Shown piece after piece: positions 3,052-61,923 of a DNA stretch of 64,000 bases. The notes beneath the pieces were generated by a model. That model made no database searches. It had not been told where the DNA came from and saw nothing but the letters and a program-made list of their open reading frames with translations. Position 1 is the stretch's first letter. Each line of letters opens with the position of its first letter. The stretch spans positions 992,001 to 1,056,000 of the forward strand of contig NZ_CP125854.1 of NCBI RefSeq assembly GCF_030169785.1. Reading direction: 5' to 3'. Source of the stretch: Bdellovibrio sp. 22V (lineage in GTDB: Bacteria; Bdellovibrionota; Bdellovibrionia; Bdellovibrionales; Bdellovibrionaceae). Both the position numbers and the translations under genes were made by a program.

Positions 3052-6000
3052 ATGAGCTTACCTAAAATATCCATTAGCAGACCGATCTTTATTACGTGCG
3101 TGACGATCGCCCTCGTGGTGGTTGGATGGGCCTCGTTCAAATCTATGAGCGTGGACTTATTCCCTGACGTCAGTATCCCGGTTGTCACAGTGCAAACGAC
3201 TTATCAAGGTGCGGGTCCTTCTGAGATCGAAACTTTGGTGAGCCGTCCTATCGAGGAAGAAGTCAGTACCATCTCTGGTATCAAACGTTTGACTTCAAAA
3301 AGTTTGGAAGGTGTTTCGCAAGTTATCGTTGAATTTAACAGCAGCGTTGACGTGAAGTACGCCGAACAACAAGTTCGCGATAAAGTAAATATCGCAAAAC
3401 CAAAACTTCCCGATGAAGTCGACGATCCAGTGATCAAAAAGTTCGACCCCTCAGACACTCCCATCATCATGGTGTCATTGACCGCGAATGGATTGGGAGA
3501 CGCCCAACTATTCGATATCGCAGACCAGTTCATCAAGCCTCGTTTGGAACAAGTGAACAACGTCGGTGCGATCGAGATTTTCGGGGGCCGCGAAAGGGAA
3601 GTTCACGTTCTTTTGGATCGTAAAAAATTAAAAGCGCGCGAAATTTCTGTCAGCCAAGTTGCCGGTCAAGTCGGTGCTTCGGGTGAGAATATTCCGAGCG
3701 GTAAAGTGGAACAAGGCGGGAAAGAACTTGTGTTCCGTGGTTTAGGTGAATTTAAAACCGTTCCTGAGATTGCAGACACTCTCGTAAACCTCTACGGAAA
3801 CGAGGTTCCTACGCGTGTTGCAGATCTGGGAACGGTTGTAGATACATTGGAGGATGAAAAGTCCCGTGCCTTCGTGAACGGTGACAAAGCGCTTTTCTTG
3901 CAAGTCTATCGTCAATCGGGCTCTAACACTGTCAGAGTAGCGGACGACGTTATTAAACAACTCGAAAAGTTGAAGCCTGAGCTTGCAAAAATGGAGGGTG
4001 CTCCCCAAGTTCAACTTGTTACGAATGCTTCTACAAAAATTAAGAACAATATTTATGACGTGAACGAAACGATCATTATCGGTATCGTTTTGACAATCAT
4101 CACGGTGTTCTTCTTCTTGGGAAGTGCGCGATCAACATTTATTACGGCCCTTTCCTTGCCGATTTCATTGATCGGTGCCTTCATGATTATGAAGGTTGCG
4201 GGCTTCTCGATTAACATCGTATCCATGTTGGCTTTGACTTTGGCCGTGGGTCTTTTGATCGACGACGCGATCGTGGTTATCGAAAACATCTACCGTCGTA
4301 TGGAACTGGGTGAAGATTCACTCACTGCCGCGGAAAAAGGTACGACCGAGATCCAAATGGCGGTCATGGCCATCACTCTTGTGGTGATCGCGGTGTTCGT
4401 GCCGGTTGGTACGATGTCTGGCACCATCGGTCAGTTCTTGAAACAGTTCGGTATGACCGTTGTGTTCTCGATGATGATCAGCTGGTTCGTGGCGATGACG
4501 ATCATTCCAATGCTGACAGCCTACTTCGGTGGCGAAGGCCACGGAGCGCATAGCAATCATCATAAACCAGCGTCGTTGTACGATAAAACTTTGGGTCGTC
4601 TTGTAAAAGGTTTCGACCGTTTCCAAGCATGGCTTGAGAAAATCTACGAAAAGCTTCTGCGTGTGACTCTTCGTCATCCCTTGATGACGATCGGAGCGAC
4701 GTTCATGGTGTTCGTGCTAAGTATTTACACGGTGACGAAAGTTCCAGGGGCGTTTATCACGGACGACGATGCCGGTGAGTTTACTGTAACTCTTGAAATG
4801 CAACCGGGCACAAGCTTGGACGGTATGAACAAAGTCGGTGATGAGGTAGATAAAATCATCCGCGCAAACCCTGAAGTGGATTACACTGCGATGATCATCG
4901 GAAGTCTTTACGGGGAGTCGAATAAATCGAACTTCTACGTCAAGATGAAAGAAGGCAAAGCTCGTAACGGTTACACAACAGAAGCGTTCCGCGATAAGAT
5001 CCGTCAACAATTGGCAGGTTTCGCTGCAACAGCAAATCCTGTTGTGAAAGAGTACGATGCGACAGGTGGTATGGGTGGACAGCCGTTTACTTTGAATATC
5101 ATCTCTGCCGATCCTCAAGAGCTTGAAGCGGCCGCAACGAAGGTTCTTGCCAAACTCAAAGCGGATCCTCGTTTGACAGACGTGGATACGAACTTCCGTC
5201 CCGGTAAACCCGAGATGCAAGTTCACTTGAAGTCGGGCGCTGCCAAACTTTATGGTATCAACACGAAAACAATGGGTGGAGAGCTTCGTGCGCAAGTAGA
5301 AGGTCTGACTCCAGCGAAGTTCCGTGAAAAAGGTCGTGAGTATGAAGTGCGCGTGCGTTTGATGCCAGAGCAACGTGACCTTAAAGAAAGCTTCAACCAG
5401 GTTTACGTTCCGAACGTGAATGGAAAACTGGTGCGCTTGTCTGACGTCGCAACAGGGGATTTGGCTTCAGGTCCTGCATCAATTGAGCGTCAAGACCGCG
5501 GTCGTTACATTCAAATCACTGCGGGTGTTGCGCCAGGTGCGGGCTTAAGTGAAGTCGTGAATGATACGGTAAAAATGATGACGACAGGTGAAACAGCATT
5601 CCCTTCGAGCGTGCGTTTCTCTTGGGGTGGTGACGCGGAAAACATGCAAGAGTTGGCGACTTCAACGGTTCTTGCGTTGGGCTTTGCGATCATGTTCATC
5701 TACTTGATCCTTTCGAGCTTGTATGAGTCTTTCATCACGCCAATCACGATCATGGTGGCGTTGCCACTGGCTCTGTGCGGTGCTTTCCTTGGATTGTTCT
5801 TGATGAGCGAAACAATGACGATCTTTGCGATCTTCGGTTTCTTCATGTTGATCGGGGTTGCCGGTAAAAACGGTATCTTGCTTGTCGACTACACAAGACA
5901 AATGATGGCGGCAGGCAAAGAAAGAGGCGAAGCCTTGGTTGAAGCGGGTAAAACGCGTCTTCGTCCGATCTTGATGACGTCGTTCGCGTTGATCGCAGGT

Positions 6001-6279
6001 ACATTGCCTGTTGCGATCGGTTTGAACGAAGCTTCGAAATCTCGTACGGCGATGGGTGTTGCGATTATCGGCGGTATGATTTCTTCGACAATTCTGACTT
6101 TGATTGTCGTACCAGCGGTATTTACATACGTAGATCGTTTTAGAATTTGGGCAAATAACATTGGTGCGAAATTCACATCCACAAAGAAAAAAGACCAACA
6201 GGTCGTTGTAGAAGTGAGATCTCCAGCAGCTCCTGATGAAGCTACGGGTGATTACGCATTAACAACATCCGAGAGTTAA
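3052..6279 (+). CDS. RND (HAE1/AcrB-type) efflux transporter permease
   Basis: A 1075-aa inner-membrane proton-driven pump with the two-fold RND layout: a membrane segment, a large periplasmic loop, a TM block, and the same again. The proton-relay residues are present: the double Asp in TM4 (GLLIDDAIVVIENIYR) and the Lys in TM10 (GVAGKNGILLVDY). GGAGG stands just before the start. Two nt separate it from the TolC-like gene and 13 nt from the MarR gene, so the three should form one operon. Length and motifs fit drug or lipophile exporters; the substrate cannot be read from sequence. An adaptor (AcrA/HlyD type), normally essential, is not encoded here. Confidence 0.95.
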   Translation: MSLPKISISRPIFITCVTIALVVVGWASFKSMSVDLFPDVSIPVVTVQTTYQGAGPSEIETLVSRPIEEEVSTISGIKRLTSKSLEGVSQVIVEFNSSVDVKYAEQQVRDKVNIAKPKLPDEVDDPVIKKFDPSDTPIIMVSLTANGLGDAQLFDIADQFIKPRLEQVNNVGAIEIFGGREREVHVLLDRKKLKAREISVSQVAGQVGASGENIPSGKVEQGGKELVFRGLGEFKTVPEIADTLVNLYGNEVPTRVADLGTVVDTLEDEKSRAFVNGDKALFLQVYRQSGSNTVRVADDVIKQLEKLKPELAKMEGAPQVQLVTNASTKIKNNIYDVNETIIIGIVLTIITVFFFLGSARSTFITALSLPISLIGAFMIMKVAGFSINIVSMLALTLAVGLLIDDAIVVIENIYRRMELGEDSLTAAEKGTTEIQMAVMAITLVVIAVFVPVGTMSGTIGQFLKQFGMTVVFSMMISWFVAMTIIPMLTAYFGGEGHGAHSNHHKPASLYDKTLGRLVKGFDRFQAWLEKIYEKLLRVTLRHPLMTIGATFMVFVLSIYTVTKVPGAFITDDDAGEFTVTLEMQPGTSLDGMNKVGDEVDKIIRANPEVDYTAMIIGSLYGESNKSNFYVKMKEGKARNGYTTEAFRDKIRQQLAGFAATANPVVKEYDATGGMGGQPFTLNIISADPQELEAAATKVLAKLKADPRLTDVDTNFRPGKPEMQVHLKSGAAKLYGINTKTMGGELRAQVEGLTPAKFREKGREYEVRVRLMPEQRDLKESFNQVYVPNVNGKLVRLSDVATGDLASGPASIERQDRGRYIQITAGVAPGAGLSEVVNDTVKMMTTGETAFPSSVRFSWGGDAENMQELATSTVLALGFAIMFIYLILSSLYESFITPITIMVALPLALCGAFLGLFLMSETMTIFAIFGFFMLIGVAGKNGILLVDYTRQMMAAGKERGEALVEAGKTRLRPILMTSFALIAGTLPVAIGLNEASKSRTAMGVAIIGGMISSTILTLIVVPAVFTYVDRFRIWANNIGAKFTSTKKKDQQVVVEVRSPAAPDEATGDYALTTSES

Positions 6280-6292
6280 TAAGGAGGATTTT

Positions 6293-6808
6293 ATGGCAAA
6301 ACTTTTTATCCAAGAAATGCCGTCCCAAGACCAGGTAAAAACAGCTCTCTCGCGAATCCACGAAGGCGTGGATTCGTGGGCTTTGTATGCGAACTTGCTA
6401 TTCAGAAAAGTAGGCAACGATTTGGAAAACCACATCGAGAGCTTGCTGGCTCCCTACAATCTTTCAGCAGGACGCTTTACGTTGCTGTATCTTTTGAAGG
6501 ATTCCCCGGAAGGATTAATGCCTTCGGAGCTTTCGCAGAAAGTGGGAGTTACTCAGGCGACGATTTCTGGTTTAATCAATGGACTTGAGAAAGCAGAACT
6601 GGTCACGCGAGAAATTCATCAAAAAGACGGACGCTCTTTTGTCATTAAGTTGACGGACAAAGGGGATCAAACCCTGAAAGAGATCTTTCCGAAGTGGGCT
6701 CCGACAATTGCAGCGTTCTGGAATCAATTCGACGCTCAAGAAAAAGAAGTCATCGGCAAAGCACTCGAAAAGATGGTTCAAAATACAGGATTGCTTCGTA
6801 TGAATTAA
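6293..6808 (+). CDS. MarR family transcriptional regulator
   Basis: A 171-aa protein with a MarR winged helix: LSAGRFTLLYLL, then the recognition region LSQKVGVTQATISGLINGLE and the wing VTREIHQKDGRSFVIKLT. AAGGAGG precedes the start with good spacing. It is the last gene of the efflux operon and so is likely to provide feedback control or ligand sensing. With the divergent TetR gene, the locus carries two regulators of different families, which is unusual. Which of them binds the inverted repeat upstream of the TolC-like gene is not known. Confidence 0.92.
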   Translation: MAKLFIQEMPSQDQVKTALSRIHEGVDSWALYANLLFRKVGNDLENHIESLLAPYNLSAGRFTLLYLLKDSPEGLMPSELSQKVGVTQATISGLINGLEKAELVTREIHQKDGRSFVIKLTDKGDQTLKEIFPKWAPTIAAFWNQFDAQEKEVIGKALEKMVQNTGLLRMN

Positions 6809-6841: not shown

Positions 6842-7678
6842 ATGAAACAGCTATTGATGGCATTAACCGTGGGCTTGGCCCTCGGTTGTGCGCCTCTCAA
6901 GAACTCTCCGTTTTCAGAAGAAACTCAGAGCTCAGTAACAAATCGCAATCAACATCAGTTGGTCGCACTCAATGAAAAAATCTCGCTCCAAGCGAGAGAA
7001 GATAAAATCGTTTTTGGCGCGGTCGCCGACACTCATCAGAATTATTCCGCTCTGGAAGATTGGGTGAAAGTGACTAATACCACCTCGCTGGATTTCGCCG
7101 TTCATCTTGGCGACTTTACAAATCAAGGGCTTAATTTCGAGTACGATGCTTATTTGAATTTGATCAGTCCTTTGAAGGTACCGCTCGTCACGGTGATCGG
7201 AAATCACGATACGGTTGCCAAAGGCAAACTTCTTTATCAGCGTTTGTTCGGCCCTTACAATTTTCACTTTGATCTAAAAGGCTATCGATTCATTGTTTTT
7301 AACAACAATCGTCTCGACTTTATAAATGAGGGTGTAGATTGGAATTGGCTCGCGCTGGAAGTGCGCTCAAGTTCATTGCCGATTGTTCTTTTTATGCACG
7401 TCGATCCCGACAATTTCGAATACTTTAGACCCCAGGATCGGGATCTTTTTTGGGATATCGTGCGCGATGCAAATGTTCGTTTGATTATGAATGGACATAA
7501 GCACATCTATCAAACTGAATTCAAAGAAGGAGTTCTTAGACACCAGGTAGAACGTCTACAAAACGGCGCCTGGTCCCGCATCACGCTCACGGACGACATG
7601 GTGAAGGTGGAGAAATGCCTTCAGAAAGAATGTCGTTATGAAACTCAGCAAGATTATCCTCCTGCTATTACTATGTAG
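6842..7678 (+). CDS. Lipoprotein calcineurin-like metallophosphoesterase (copy 1)
   Basis: A 278-aa lipoprotein with signal MKQLLMALTVGLALGC, the Cys being the lipidation site. The phosphoesterase metal-site motifs appear in order: DTH (ADTHQNY), GDFTN, GNHD, FMH and NGHKH. ATG 6842 is preferred over the in-frame TTG at 6830 because GGAGAG sits before it and the lipoprotein signal begins there. The target phosphoester is unknown; the protein should sit in the periplasm or at a membrane. Its 3' end overlaps the next gene by 41 nt. A paralogue with the same order of motifs lies at 58978-59790, again followed by a paralogue of the next gene. Confidence 0.88.
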   Translation: MKQLLMALTVGLALGCAPLKNSPFSEETQSSVTNRNQHQLVALNEKISLQAREDKIVFGAVADTHQNYSALEDWVKVTNTTSLDFAVHLGDFTNQGLNFEYDAYLNLISPLKVPLVTVIGNHDTVAKGKLLYQRLFGPYNFHFDLKGYRFIVFNNNRLDFINEGVDWNWLALEVRSSSLPIVLFMHVDPDNFEYFRPQDRDLFWDIVRDANVRLIMNGHKHIYQTEFKEGVLRHQVERLQNGAWSRITLTDDMVKVEKCLQKECRYETQQDYPPAITM

Positions 7679-8168
7679 TGGAATGGCTTATGCCGATTGG
7701 GGAGTGGGCGCTGGAACGGGCTCTTACATGGGAGACCGGCATTTTGGCGTGAATTATACTTCCGAATCGCAAAGACATATGACGGAGTTTTCTTATGGGG
7801 AAACTCCGGGAATTTTAGGCGGTCGCGTTCGGCAGCTCAATTTAAAATATGTCTATTCTCCGCTTCAGAGCATTTATCACGAAGTCACGACGAACTGGAT
7901 TGGCATTGGTGCCTTGTTGAGCCGCTGCCTTTGCAGTGACACCTTTGTGACAAATCCGGACGTCTACCCCGAAAGCAATTATTATGACGAAACCGCTTAT
8001 CGTGTCGGACTTGTTTTCGCGACGAAACTGAACTGGCGGAATTGGGAAGGTTATTGGGATTGGACACTTTTAGATCAAGTGGCCATAGCGATTTACAACA
8101 ACAATCGCTATGCCTCCAAACCCGAAGCCTATTGGGCGAGTGGGTTTGGAGTTCGCTATTATTTTTGA
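7638..8168 (+). CDS. Small secreted beta-barrel-like protein (module partner, copy 1)
   Basis: A 176-aa protein with signal peptide MKLSKIILLLLLCSGMAYA and alternating aromatic/hydrophobic strands ending in GVRYYF, a C-terminal aromatic as in outer membrane barrels. The start lies inside the phosphoesterase gene (41-nt overlap, different frame), so translation is probably coupled. It shares with the protein at 59772-60308 the blocks YP..YYD.TA.R.G, IAI.NN and SGF...Y.F. Function unknown; the repeated pairing suggests a barrel partner or outer-membrane anchor for the phosphoesterase. The stop is one base from the stop of the convergent gene. Confidence 0.75.
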   Translation: MKLSKIILLLLLCSGMAYADWGVGAGTGSYMGDRHFGVNYTSESQRHMTEFSYGETPGILGGRVRQLNLKYVYSPLQSIYHEVTTNWIGIGALLSRCLCSDTFVTNPDVYPESNYYDETAYRVGLVFATKLNWRNWEGYWDWTLLDQVAIAIYNNNRYASKPEAYWASGFGVRYYF

Positions 8169-57520: not shown

Positions 57521-57889
57521 ATGTCTCTAACAAACGATCAATTGGTTGATGCGTTGTCTCAAAAAACAGTTCTTGAGATCGCTGAACTTGTAAAAATGCT
57601 TGAAGAAAAATGGGGCGTTTCTGCTGCTGCTCCTGTAGCTGCTGCTGGCGCTGGTCCTGCTGCTGCTGTTGAAGAAAAAACTGCTTTCGACGTTATCTTG
57701 GTTGATGCAGGCGCGAACAAAATCAACGTAATCAAAGAAGTACGTGGTTTGACTGGTTTGGGTCTTGCTGAAGCTAAAGCTCTTGTTGAAGCTGGCGGCA
57801 AAGCTGTTAAAGAAGGCGCTACTAAAGAAGACGCAGAAAAAATCAAGAAAGCTCTTGAAGCTGCGGGCGCGAAAGTTACTGTTAAGTAA
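57521..57889 (+). CDS. rplL: Ribosomal protein L7/L12
   Basis: A 122-aa stalk protein: N-terminal dimer helix ([20 protein letters not shown]), Ala/Pro hinge (about residues 36-50) and the compact C-terminal domain that contacts elongation factors ([36 protein letters not shown]). GGAGG is present. Very biased codon use. A strong terminator closes the cluster. Confidence 0.97.
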
Positions 57890-57913
57890 TTTTGCACTTG
57901 AATGCGAATTCAC

Positions 57914-57945
57914 AAAAGCCTCTGGGAAACCAGGGGCTTTTTTTA
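57914..57945 (+). terminator. Rho-independent terminator after rplL
   Basis: Stem AAAAGCCTCTGG / CCAGGGGCTTTT with one G-U pair and loop GAAA, then T7ATTTT. Confidence 0.92.
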
Positions 57946-57972
57946 TTTTGGCTTCTCTCTTCGAGACCTATA

Positions 57973-58001
57973 TTGACTCCAGTTTAGTCGAAATCTAAAA
58001 C
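57973..58001 (+). promoter_or_regulatory. Candidate promoter close to a GTG start
   Basis: TTGACT, 17-nt spacer, TAAAAC (4 of 6 at the -10). The predicted transcript would begin almost at the GTG codon at 58007. Confidence 0.35.
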
Positions 58002-58006
58002 TAGGA

Positions 58007-58981
58007 GTGCTTCAAAAAATCAGTTTTATTTTTTCATTCTTAGCAAGTCTGTATCTGCCAACGGCTTTCGCGGCCCCGCTCGGAACTATTCCAACAATTC
58101 AAGAGCAGAATCTTCAGATGCTCTTTAATTTCCGTTCGGATTTGTGGGCTTCTCCATACACATACAAAGAATCTCCTTTACGAATTATTGGCGGCGATAT
58201 TCGTGTGCCACTTTTGAAGTCGGAAAGTTGGAGTGCATCGGCCAATGTTTTTCTTGAAGGTCTGAACTTGGGCCGCACGCAGTTCTCGTTGGGCGGAGAA
58301 GATGTCTTTATCGCGAACACTCTGCAAGATGAAGGTGTCGGATTCGGAGTGCGCAAAGATTTTGAATCGGGAAGTACACTGAGTGTTTTCGCTGCCTACG
58401 CCACTGCCAGCGACGATCCATGGGCTGATCTTCGAAACAATTATTTTAACGGAACTGTTTCTTATCGAACGGCTCCCGGTGGTGACTATTACTGGATCTT
58501 CGCCGTCAATCAGTCCAACAATCGCGGTATTTATAACGGAACTCCGTTTCCCTTTATCGGTGTGATTCGCGATGTAAATCCCGAGTTCAAAGCTTCTTTT
58601 GGTTTTCCTTTTGTAGTCTTGCAATGGGGAACCGGAGAGAATTGGATTAAAAGTTTCAGCATGACACCTTTTGGAACGCAAATTGGAGCAGCCAAAGATC
58701 TTGCGCATGGCTTTGCTTTTGATGCGCGCGCCGCTTTGACGGTGCGTTCGTACATGTTGGATGAACGCACAGAAGACAGCAGCCGGCTTTATTATCAGGA
58801 AATTTTTGTTGAGGGCGCTTTCAAAAAATTTGTAACGCCGGAAACAGGTGTTTCCTTCGCTTTAGGGGCGGCGGTCGACCGACGCCTTTACGAATCGGAA
58901 CGCATCTATCATCCCAACTCGAAGGTCACAACCATTGACAGTGATTTTTACGGACGCCTTGGTGTGGAGTTCAGGCTATGA
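58007..58981 (+). CDS. Predicted outer-membrane beta-barrel protein
   Basis: A 324-aa protein with signal peptide (QKISFIFSFLASLYLPTAFA) and regular aromatic beta strands (WSASANVFLEGLNLGRTQFS, TLSVFAAYATASDDPW, GDYYWIFAVNQSNNRG), ending in YGRLGVEFRL. GTG 58007 is the only normal start codon that keeps the whole signal, but AGGAG touches it directly, so either the message is leaderless or a rarer codon downstream is used. The stop overlaps the phosphoesterase lipoprotein by ATGA. It is the first gene of a three-gene unit with copy 2 of the module. Confidence 0.75.
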   Translation: MLQKISFIFSFLASLYLPTAFAAPLGTIPTIQEQNLQMLFNFRSDLWASPYTYKESPLRIIGGDIRVPLLKSESWSASANVFLEGLNLGRTQFSLGGEDVFIANTLQDEGVGFGVRKDFESGSTLSVFAAYATASDDPWADLRNNYFNGTVSYRTAPGGDYYWIFAVNQSNNRGIYNGTPFPFIGVIRDVNPEFKASFGFPFVVLQWGTGENWIKSFSMTPFGTQIGAAKDLAHGFAFDARAALTVRSYMLDERTEDSSRLYYQEIFVEGAFKKFVTPETGVSFALGAAVDRRLYESERIYHPNSKVTTIDSDFYGRLGVEFRL

Positions 58982-59790
58982 AGAGAATATGTTTTTATTT
59001 CTCATTCTTTGTCTTCTGCAGTTCCTGTGCGCCTTTTGTGGATTCGCCTTTTTCGGACAATCTTTTGCGCCCTGAAAGAAACCTCAATCAGTTGTCTTTA
59101 GGAAAAATTGGCGACATTGAAGGCGACGGAATCATTCGTATAGCTGTTTTCTCGGATCCGCATCAGAACTATAAAGCGACCGACAAAATGGTTTTTGGAA
59201 TGAACAAAGAAACGGGCGTCGACTTCGTCGCGGGGCTCGGGGATTTTACGAATTCCGCCTACAATCTTGAGTTCGACGAATTTATTGAAGCTATCAAACC
59301 TTTGCGGCAAATCACTTTGAATGCGGTGGGGAACCATGACTCTATCGGGGCCGGGCCCGAGCTCTATCGCAAAGCTTTCGGGCCTTCGAATTTTTATTTC
59401 GAATCCGCGACCTATCGCTACATTTTTTTCAACTCGAACAATCTTGAAAATCCAAAAGAATTTGACCCGCAATGGTTAAAGGATCGAGTTGATGAGACGG
59501 GCAAAGACATCATGATTTTTTCGCACGTTCAATTGCGTGATACGGACCGCTATTTCAACGCTGATGCCGCAACATTGGGTTATGTGATCGAGCACCCGCG
59601 GGTCAAGATTATCTTTAACGGCCATAACCACGTTTACGATCTTTCAAAAGATCATAATACCATCATGATGCAATGTGGGCGTGTTGATGGTGACGAAGGC
59701 TCCCATTGGTTGCTTATCACAGTTCAAGGAAATCAGTTTTGTGTCACAAGAAAAGATACGGGGGCGCAAACGTGCGAAACTATAAAATAG
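58978..59790 (+). CDS. Lipoprotein calcineurin-like metallophosphoesterase (copy 2)
   Basis: A 270-aa protein with lipobox VFCSSC (Cys at residue 17). Metal-site motifs in order: SDPHQNY (His kept in D-x-H), GDFTN, GNHD, SHV and NGHNHVYD. It aligns along its length with the phosphoesterase at 6842-7678: the shared start (CAP..NSPF/CAPFVDSPF), NLEFDEF / NFEYDAY, FGPSNFYFES / FGPYNFHFDL. The usual GDxHxx residues suggest a real phosphohydrolase; the substrate is unknown. A 19-nt overlap joins it to the small barrel gene. Confidence 0.88.
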   Translation: MKRICFYFSFFVFCSSCAPFVDSPFSDNLLRPERNLNQLSLGKIGDIEGDGIIRIAVFSDPHQNYKATDKMVFGMNKETGVDFVAGLGDFTNSAYNLEFDEFIEAIKPLRQITLNAVGNHDSIGAGPELYRKAFGPSNFYFESATYRYIFFNSNNLENPKEFDPQWLKDRVDETGKDIMIFSHVQLRDTDRYFNADAATLGYVIEHPRVKIIFNGHNHVYDLSKDHNTIMMQCGRVDGDEGSHWLLITVQGNQFCVTRKDTGAQTCETIK

Positions 59791-60308
59791 CCTTCGTATT
59801 TTTTTCTTTTTTGTGGAGCCTGAGCGCTCACGCCGGAGACTGGCGGGCCATTGTTGAACGGGCCGGATTTATGGGAACTCTCGCTGCGGGGGCCAGCTAC
59901 GAATGGCGTCCTGAGCATGCAACGGATCTTTCTATTGGCGGATACCCGATTGACGACGAAACTTTTTATCAAGCGAACTTCGTTTATCGTTATTCGCGCT
60001 GGAACAGCCCTGTGGGTCACGATATGTGGCGACCTCTGCAGTTCGGTTTTTTCATGGTATATGCGCTCAACTCTGATAAGTATTTTCTGGAATCTCCGGA
60101 TAAGTATCCTTATCCAGACTATTATGACTTTACGGCTCTTCGTTATGGCGCAGAATTCGGAACGACGTACACCTTCATGCGCAGCCGCATTGGATTAGCT
60201 TACCGAATTCGTATCTTTGATAACGGGGTGATCGCGATTTTCAACAATACCAACCGCGACCTTCAGTATTATATCTCTTCCGGATTTTCGTTGCAGTACT
60301 TGTTCTAG
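59772..60308 (+). CDS. Small secreted beta-barrel-like protein (module partner, copy 2)
   Basis: A 178-aa protein. Start GTG 59772 gives a signal peptide MRNYKIAFVFFSFLWSLSAHA; the GTG lies inside the phosphoesterase gene. The body has aromatic strands ending in GFSLQYLF. Blocks DKYPYPDYYDFTALRYG, GVIAIFNN and SSGF correspond to the partner at 7638-8168, so the pair has been kept together. Function unknown; likely to act with the phosphoesterase at the outer membrane. Confidence 0.75.
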   Translation: MRNYKIAFVFFSFLWSLSAHAGDWRAIVERAGFMGTLAAGASYEWRPEHATDLSIGGYPIDDETFYQANFVYRYSRWNSPVGHDMWRPLQFGFFMVYALNSDKYFLESPDKYPYPDYYDFTALRYGAEFGTTYTFMRSRIGLAYRIRIFDNGVIAIFNNTNRDLQYYISSGFSLQYLF

Positions 60309-60313
60309 TGTTC

Positions 60314-61051
60314 TTACCAGGCAAATCCGACCTTAAGACCCAAGGTGTTTTGTGATTTGTTATCCGAGTTGTCCCATTTGATATTGATGTAGTTATATTC
60401 CACAGCAAAACGCAGTCCTTTGCCATGAGTCGTGACGCCCAGAGAATAGTATTGATGTACGCCCTTGTCGTCATAGGGACCGAAACTTCCGTGTGAATTT
60501 GTCACCTTCGTGCTCACATCATGCGATTCATAGATGTAGCTTAGATAAGGCACAAAAAAAGCGTATTTGTAGCCCAGGCTTATGCCGGCTTGAGTGGAGC
60601 TGACGTCTGAGTCGGCGTCTGACGTCGTGCCTGACGTTTCACTCGTTGAAACATTTCTTTTGCCGATCGCGCCGTGCAAAGCCGCCACCCACGCGTTTTC
60701 TTTTACGCCGTGATTGAGGAATTGAAAGCGCAAACCCAAAAGCGAATTGTCGAGAATAATGTCGGTGCCCTTTAAGACATTCACGCTGGCATCCAAGCCG
60801 ATATTCGTGACGTAGATTAAATCTCCCGCCGTGATGTCTTCGTTAATGCGCACTTCCGAGCGCAAAGGCGGATTGGAAGTAATGTCGTTAATAACATTGA
60901 CCTTGGTTGCAGAAGCAACAACCGGAGCAACATGTCCGCTCCATTGTTCTTCGCCCGTCACCGGCACCGCAAAGTGAGAAGCACGAAAGTTGATTGTATG
61001 TCCACAACCCGACAGAACAACGACAGACAAAAGTAAAATCAGAATGTTCAT
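60314..61051 (-). CDS. Beta-rich lipoprotein
   Basis: A 245-aa protein from ATG 61051 (AAGGAG 4 nt upstream) with lipobox VLSGC. The mature protein has barrel-like strands (GLDASVNVLKGTDI, LLGLRFQFLNHGVKENAWVA, FFVPYLSYIYESHDV, LRFAVEYNYINIKW) ending in GLKVGFAW. It could be a lipid-anchored outer membrane barrel. A Ser/Thr/Asp-rich patch (about residues 145-160) is probably a surface loop. It lies 8 nt after the alpha/beta hydrolase gene, likely in one operon. Confidence 0.72.
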   Translation of the reverse strand: MNILILLLSVVVLSGCGHTINFRASHFAVPVTGEEQWSGHVAPVVASATKVNVINDITSNPPLRSEVRINEDITAGDLIYVTNIGLDASVNVLKGTDIILDNSLLGLRFQFLNHGVKENAWVAALHGAIGKRNVSTSETSGTTSDADSDVSSTQAGISLGYKYAFFVPYLSYIYESHDVSTKVTNSHGSFGPYDDKGVHQYYSLGVTTHGKGLRFAVEYNYINIKWDNSDNKSQNTLGLKVGFAW

Positions 61052-61059
61052 AAATCTCC

Positions 61060-61923
61060 TTAACGTTTCGGCTGTGGCGCACACTGCTTATTTAATTCCT
61101 GTAAAAATAGACGTTGGTATTCTTCGGCGTTGGGGCCCGTAAAGGCCTGAATGTGTTTGCCTTCCGGAACTTTCAAAAACTTTTTCGGTTCGCGAGCAGA
61201 AGCGAAAACATCTTCGCCGTTTTCGATTCCGACAATGTCGTCTTCGTCGCCATGTATGACGAGCAGGGGAGTGGGTGAAATCTCCGCGATATGATCCTGT
61301 GCAGAGACCTTATCACGAGTCACCACGTAAGGAAGCCACTGAAAAGGCCACGTCCACCAATGTCCCGCAAGCACGCGTTGGCCCACTTTACGGTAGGACT
61401 TAAACGTGCTTTCAACGGCGACTAGGCAAACGGGAATATCCTTGCTTGTGGCGGCGGTATAGAGAGCCACGTTTCCACCTAAGCTTTGACCAAAAATAAC
61501 CAGCGGCGTTTTGGGCTCAGTTTTCGCCAACCATTCCAGGCTGACGCGACCGGCTTCGGTCGTGCTCTTTTGCGTGGGTTCACCTTCGCTGCCGCCGTAA
61601 CCGGGATAGTCGAAAATAAAATAATCGTAGTCGTGCTTTAAGATCCAGTGGAGCGCAATAAAATGCGAAGAGATGTTTTCGGCATTCCCGTGAAAGAATA
61701 GAAGTCGGGCTTTTGGTTTTGTGGCTTTGCTTTTGAAATACCAACCGATGATTTTGTTGCCATCGCTGCCGGCAAGTTCGATCTGCTGCGGTTGTGGCTC
61801 TAACTTTTTCAGATCCACATACATATAAGAGGTTGGATAATAAAAAAGATGACTGCACCCGCTAAGTAAGGCGCAAAATAATATGCTCAGTGTCGATATG
61901 GCCCAGTGACAGTTGCTTCGCAT
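61060..61923 (-). CDS. Lipoprotein alpha/beta hydrolase
   Basis: A 287-aa protein with lipobox ALLSGC. Alpha/beta-hydrolase fold: oxyanion region LLFFHGNAENIS, FIFDYPGYGGSEGEPTQ, nucleophile Ser in VIFGQSLGGNVAL, Asp in LLVIHGDEDDIVG and His in VPEGKHIQAF. It resembles the BEM46/ABHD-type serine hydrolases. As a lipoprotein it should act on an ester or peptide in the periplasm or at the outer membrane. First gene of a two-gene minus-strand unit. Confidence 0.88.
   Translation of the reverse strand: MRSNCHWAISTLSILFCALLSGCSHLFYYPTSYMYVDLKKLEPQPQQIELAGSDGNKIIGWYFKSKATKPKARLLFFHGNAENISSHFIALHWILKHDYDYFIFDYPGYGGSEGEPTQKSTTEAGRVSLEWLAKTEPKTPLVIFGQSLGGNVALYTAATSKDIPVCLVAVESTFKSYRKVGQRVLAGHWWTWPFQWLPYVVTRDKVSAQDHIAEISPTPLLVIHGDEDDIVGIENGEDVFASAREPKKFLKVPEGKHIQAFTGPNAEEYQRLFLQELNKQCAPQPKR

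Follow-up and report, generated by a model that had tools for sequence, protein, structure and literature searches.

An assembly of a lipoprotein with an outer-membrane barrel has been described in E. coli for RcsF, a sensor, with OmpA and other outer-membrane proteins (PMC4942254). The best comparisons for the enzyme treated here are Rv0805, a class III phosphodiesterase, and GpdQ, and for its barrel partner the small barrels of OmpA, OmpX, PagP, PagL and the N-terminal part of OprF. A literature search found no paper on the pair itself, in which a lipoprotein phosphoesterase (MPE) and a small barrel protein (OMP) are encoded side by side. We describe it from a window of 64,000 nucleotides of Bdellovibrio sp. 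22V, whose genome of 3.60 Mb is a single contig. The two genes form a genuine system and are strictly linked; the system brings together an uncharacterised enzyme and a dedicated, unannotated barrel family, and the linkage holds in two classes or more of a phylum known for its predators.

Module copies in Bdellovibrio sp. 22V

The window carries two copies of the module, with the following features:

6842..7678, plus strand: MPE1, lipoprotein calcineurin-like phosphoesterase, 278 aa; Pfam PF00149, E 4e-14
7638..7678, plus strand: overlap of the MPE1 and OMP1 frames, 41 nt
7638..8168, plus strand: OMP1, 176 aa; signal peptide and predicted 8-stranded outer-membrane barrel, C-terminal Phe
58007..58981, plus strand: UP2, 324 aa; secreted and probably a larger barrel of the outer membrane; the third gene in modules of the copy 2 type
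58978..59790, plus strand: MPE2, lipoprotein calcineurin-like phosphoesterase, 270 aa; PF00149, E 1.4e-12
59772..60308, plus strand: OMP2, 178 aa; GTG start within MPE2; homologous to OMP1

The two pairs, at 6842-8168 and 58978-60308, lie where the initial annotation had placed them; it had also given the frame overlaps correctly, including that of 19 nt in copy 2, and all of the motifs it quoted are present. These are GDFTN, GNHD and NGHKH/NGHNH in the MPEs, and in the small proteins of the window YPESNYYDETAYRVG and YPYPDYYDFTALRYG, together with IAIYNN/IAIFNN and SGF. BLASTP relates MPE1 to MPE2 at 33% identity (E 2e-41) and OMP1 to OMP2 at 29% identity over the full length (E 4e-13), so that the kinship of the small proteins, the point on which the annotation had staked its module, is upheld. 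It had missed the third gene of copy 2, at 58007-58981, and a third copy of the module that lies 2.3 Mb away (G000:C1:3345692-3346997), likewise with overlapping genes. A search of the genome with the family profile, taken up to E 10, returns these three copies only.

The named homologues are all from Bdellovibrionota except for two distant generic matches. A defence or phage origin was considered and rejected, the MPEs giving weak generic phosphoesterase matches only and OMP2 a single weak PHROG match of unknown function. Next to copy 2, the minus strand encodes at 60314-61084, convergent with OMP2, a protein that resembles a lipoprotein and weakly matches OMP_b-brl.

Pairing across genomes and history of the copies

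The initial annotation had proposed testing whether the two families always occur together, and they do: of the 144 genomes of the class, 31 are matched by the barrel profile (E<=0.001), and these are also the 31 matched by the profile of the MPEs (E<=1e-30), at 36 places each, all of them adjacent. A phylum-wide search added nine genomes outside the class with MPEs at E 1e-49 to 1e-63, and every one of these adjoins a small barrel-like gene, downstream in eight and upstream in one (G328, where the gene order is swapped and the gap is 57 nt). Profile comparison shows the second-class barrels to be homologues of the first-class ones (hhalign probability 97.8%, E 1.1e-12). With the MPE of G269 (L109 17-829), which is cut by a contig edge, left out of the count, all 45 of the 45 testable MPEs have a barrel partner, and the solitary phosphoesterase that would have spoken against the module is found at none of these places. 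The statement that the MPE commonly occurs without a partner would hold if a weaker tier of relatives were counted as members, namely lipoprotein MPEs at E 1e-25 to 1e-16, which have no barrel partner in the 11 examined. Six of these 11 unpaired sisters, from other orders, adjoin lpxC (L117, L118, L119, L121, L122 and L126; three identified by Pfam and the other three by matching N-terminal sequence). A secreted protein with a PPEG-like motif is also encoded near several of the lpxC-linked MPEs.

The gene neighbourhoods vary widely between lineages, and the pair alone is constant. It is absent from 6 of 24 genomes of the genus and is thus not essential to the group's way of life; for the prey-directed role that had been proposed we find nothing specific in support.

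The trees of the two families agree closely, with a Mantel r of 0.93 over 45 pairs (permutation maximum 0.31) and of 0.90 within the class. The MPE tree recovers 24 of the 29 well-supported splits of the barrel tree, and the closest relative is identical in both trees for 9 of the 10 copies checked. G020 and G012 are grouped with copy 1 and G016 with copy 3; copy 2 belongs to a large clade apart from these. The copies are therefore old paralogous lineages, each member of which has kept its own partner. Of the initial description of the module as duplicated, the homology of the copies stands, but they belong to old, distinct lineages that other species share, and a recent segmental duplication is ruled out for such deep paralogues with different neighbours.

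The phosphoesterase and its tail

Both window enzymes score well above the PF00149 gathering cut-off of 21.5 bits (53.9 for MPE1 and 48.9 for MPE2), and every NCBIfam equivalog cut-off is missed. The metal ligands D63, H65, D91, N121, H186, H219 and H221 (MPE1 numbering) are 98-100% conserved among 45 homologues, so the metal site is predicted to be competent. The AlphaFold model of MPE1 (pLDDT 89) is nearest to Rv0805, then to GpdQ and the purple acid phosphatases, and a sequence search of the PDB likewise has GpdQ as its best match. Bd0054, an MPE of Bdellovibrio NC01 reported to be under selection (PMC9888234), was considered as a possible member and rejected, being another protein, one that has two transmembrane helices.

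The lipobox cysteine, Cys16 in MPE1, is invariant in all 45 paired MPEs, and the residue that follows it is other than Asp in most. A residue other than Asp at this position favours sorting to the outer membrane as a general rule, though perhaps not the rule of this phylum. The lipobox cysteine marks the MPE, by sequence, as a predicted lipoprotein and, with the predicted OmpA-type barrel of its partner, supports the envelope location first proposed for the module.

Within about ten residues of this cysteine lies a short tail motif, [ST]-x-[FYW], usually SPF or SPY (SPF at residues 22-24 in MPE1). It is found in 45 of 45 paired MPEs, a count that includes three degenerate variants (SVF, TPF and TPW) added by eye, and in 0 of 11 unpaired sister lipoprotein MPEs. 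Conservation in and near the tail is high (S22 96%, P23 89%, N36 100%), and in the MPE1 model the tail is of low confidence (pLDDT 63-68). Short conserved motifs within flexible tethers usually mark binding sites, and the presumed ligand here would be the barrel. The motif also follows one MPE clade, and its distribution may reflect ancestry in addition to partner binding.

On balance we lean, with moderate confidence, towards an outer-membrane phosphohydrolase complex made up of the lipoprotein and its dedicated barrel, the two docking through the tail. An MPE with a complete dinuclear-metal site would use its lipidated cysteine as an outer-membrane anchor and would dock, via the SPF/SPY tail that follows the cysteine, on a dedicated OmpA-type 8-stranded barrel. 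Through the barrel the enzyme would be placed at the membrane, most likely turned towards the cell surface or extending to it; its presumed substrate there would be a small phosphoester or phosphodiester such as a lipid headgroup, a glycerophosphodiester or a nucleotide.

The barrel family

The barrel family has no match among PDB sequences or in NCBIfam, and OMP1 has none in Pfam; a Pfam barrel model is touched by only 1 of 25 members of the family. The AlphaFold model of OMP1 (pLDDT 86) shows eight strands, and the chain ends in Phe. VIA-align places the model at Z 13.2 to both the N-terminal barrel of OprF and a Thermus barrel and at Z of about 12 to OmpA, PagP and NspA; the Foldseek TM-scores of the model are modest, 0.4-0.5. 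OMP1 is accordingly predicted, from the model, to consist of eight antiparallel strands closed into an OmpA-type barrel.

When the barrel is oriented by the usual topology rule, with the N-terminus periplasmic and the periplasmic turns short, the outward loops are found to be well conserved (mean entropy 1.26 for L1, 1.63 for L3 and 1.85 for L4), and carry the motifs YP..YYDETA.R and D..IA.YNN; loop L2 is variable, and the periplasmic turns are less conserved (2.69-3.15). In ordinary outer-membrane proteins, variability is usually greatest in the outer loops. Their conservation here, against this general trend, makes a conserved function on the outer face of the barrel likely.

The presence of PagP and PagL among the structural matches bears on a different proposal, that the module trims the phosphates of lipid A or LPS in the cell's own outer membrane, with the barrel presenting the lipid. 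Bdellovibrio makes a neutral lipid A (PMC12228718), and the same paper, citing Schwudke 2003, gives mannose in place of phosphate. A phosphatase would be needed on this account because the lipid A lacks phosphate, and the lpxC neighbours of the sister MPEs in other orders point the same way. The lpxC-linked MPEs, however, have neither barrel nor tail motif, the likeness to PagP and PagL is one of common fold with no sequence match, and the genus, in which neutral lipid A should be general, lacks the module in a quarter of its genomes, 6 of 24. We give this proposal little credence.

Overlapping frames and the barrel start codon

In nearly all pairs the start of the barrel gene falls within the MPE gene. 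In some relatives the frame is open and holds no ATG, GTG or TTG, but has ATC at the equivalent position, -21 relative to the MPE stop in the first class and -19 in the second. This ATC stands behind a good Shine-Dalgarno sequence in L014, L129, L130, L110, L111, L113 and L115, four of which (L110, L111, L113 and L115) read AGGAGG-8-ATC. Orthologues hold ATG or GTG at this position, the window equivalent being the GTG at 59772. The arrangement suggests AUC initiation of the barrel gene under translational coupling, as a prediction from the nucleotide sequence, and the barrel genes of L098 and L134 may use an ATT start. The start codons of L001, L022, L029, L108, L114 and L133, for which the picks were missing or implausible, were left out of this comparison.

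In the complex that we favour, the start of the barrel gene inside the enzyme gene would ensure by translational coupling that both proteins are made together. An interlocked variant can be imagined, in which the MPE tail passes through its own barrel or is clamped by it and the enzyme is displayed on the surface, with barrel starts lying inside the enzyme gene and apparently being AUC in some relatives; this we regard as possible but rather doubtful.

Gene context, UP2 and regulation

Copy 1 follows two genes:

3052..6279, plus strand: RND efflux permease (NCBIfam RND permease, 1.6e-235), in the probable copy 1 operon
6293..6808, plus strand: MarR-family regulator (Pfam MarR, 1e-10), 33-nt gap to copy 1

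The pump and the MarR gene probably form the host operon of copy 1, and the order efflux-RND-MarR-MPE-OMP is common to three species, including G020 and G012. Genes for MarR (L097, L102) or TetR (L101, L103) regulators also stand divergently beside other pairs. Both observations would suit a module for envelope stress or drug response, linked to efflux, in which the enzyme detoxifies or trims phosphorylated compounds, but regulators beside a gene are commonplace and most copies, including copies 2 and 3, have no such neighbour. We consider this explanation highly improbable.

Copy 2 is preceded by ribosomal genes, from which it is set apart by a hairpin:

57914..57941, plus strand: terminator-like hairpin, 12-pair stem and T tract after rplL; a consensus match only

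It stands between the ribosomal genes and the UP2-MPE2-OMP2 unit. Across 57521-58007, rplL gives way to a strong terminator-like hairpin and, after it, to UP2-MPE-OMP, not to rpoB. UP2 overlaps MPE2 by 4 nt (ATGA). A gene of this 320-aa type lies 5' of the MPE in 19 of 36 class members, with the 4-nt overlap wherever checked, and all 15 of the closest UP2 matches in the sample (E<1e-100) adjoin an MPE; remoter relatives are found away from one. A Slam-type exporter (SlipAM, PF04575) was considered as an identity for UP2 and is improbable: one of 13 members matches, below the threshold at E 0.0036, about as well as DUF6268 does, and genus-wide no member of the UP2 family matches PF04575 above the cut-off. 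In the second class a secreted family of about 300 aa, A7, is convergent with the barrel gene with a 4-nt overlap (L108, L110, L111, L113, L114, L115); homology of A7 to UP2 is ruled out (hhalign probability 0.3%).

Elsewhere in the genome a UP2-family gene (L148:4076-5023) is convergent with pstB-pstA-pstC-pstS, again with a 4-nt overlap, a layout of UP2 paralogue and pst genes common to about ten congeners. The pst neighbour is a weak hint of phosphate handling. Adjacency and co-evolution of MPE and barrel are also compatible with co-function without contact, in which a periplasm-facing MPE serves to scavenge phosphate or other products and substrate enters through the barrel, joined by UP2 in copy 2, as a channel. 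The larger, barrel-like UP2 family, its paralogue beside the pst genes in this genome and in the congeners, and the place of GpdQ, a glycerophosphodiesterase, among the nearest MPE folds all speak for it. Set against these, the pst neighbour is a single orthologous locus in one genus, and the paralogue, being convergent, is not co-transcribed with pst. Pho boxes are not enriched near the modules, the window having 5 matches against 4.3 expected and none at the modules themselves. OmpA-type 8-stranded barrels, moreover, seldom form wide pores. We take scavenging to be a serious though rather unlikely alternative to the tail-docked complex.

Comparison with known systems

The MPE has the fold and the full metal-ligand set of Rv0805 and GpdQ, but differs from both in its lipidation, its conserved tail after the cysteine, its barrel partner and a distinct DxHxNY motif. 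Its partner is predicted to have the eight strands of OmpA, OmpX, the OprF N-terminal barrel, PagP and PagL, and like them a C-terminal Phe (VIA Z 9 to 13), but is without a sequence match to any solved structure and carries conserved motifs in its outward loops. If the complex is real, it would be a simple model for the placement of a lipoprotein enzyme at the outer membrane and the catalytic counterpart of an RcsF-OmpA-type assembly. Both join a lipoprotein to a barrel, and the barrels here match the OmpA fold; RcsF, however, is a sensor (PMC4942254), whereas the lipoprotein here is an enzyme, and its barrel is a dedicated one, encoded by an adjacent and usually overlapping gene.
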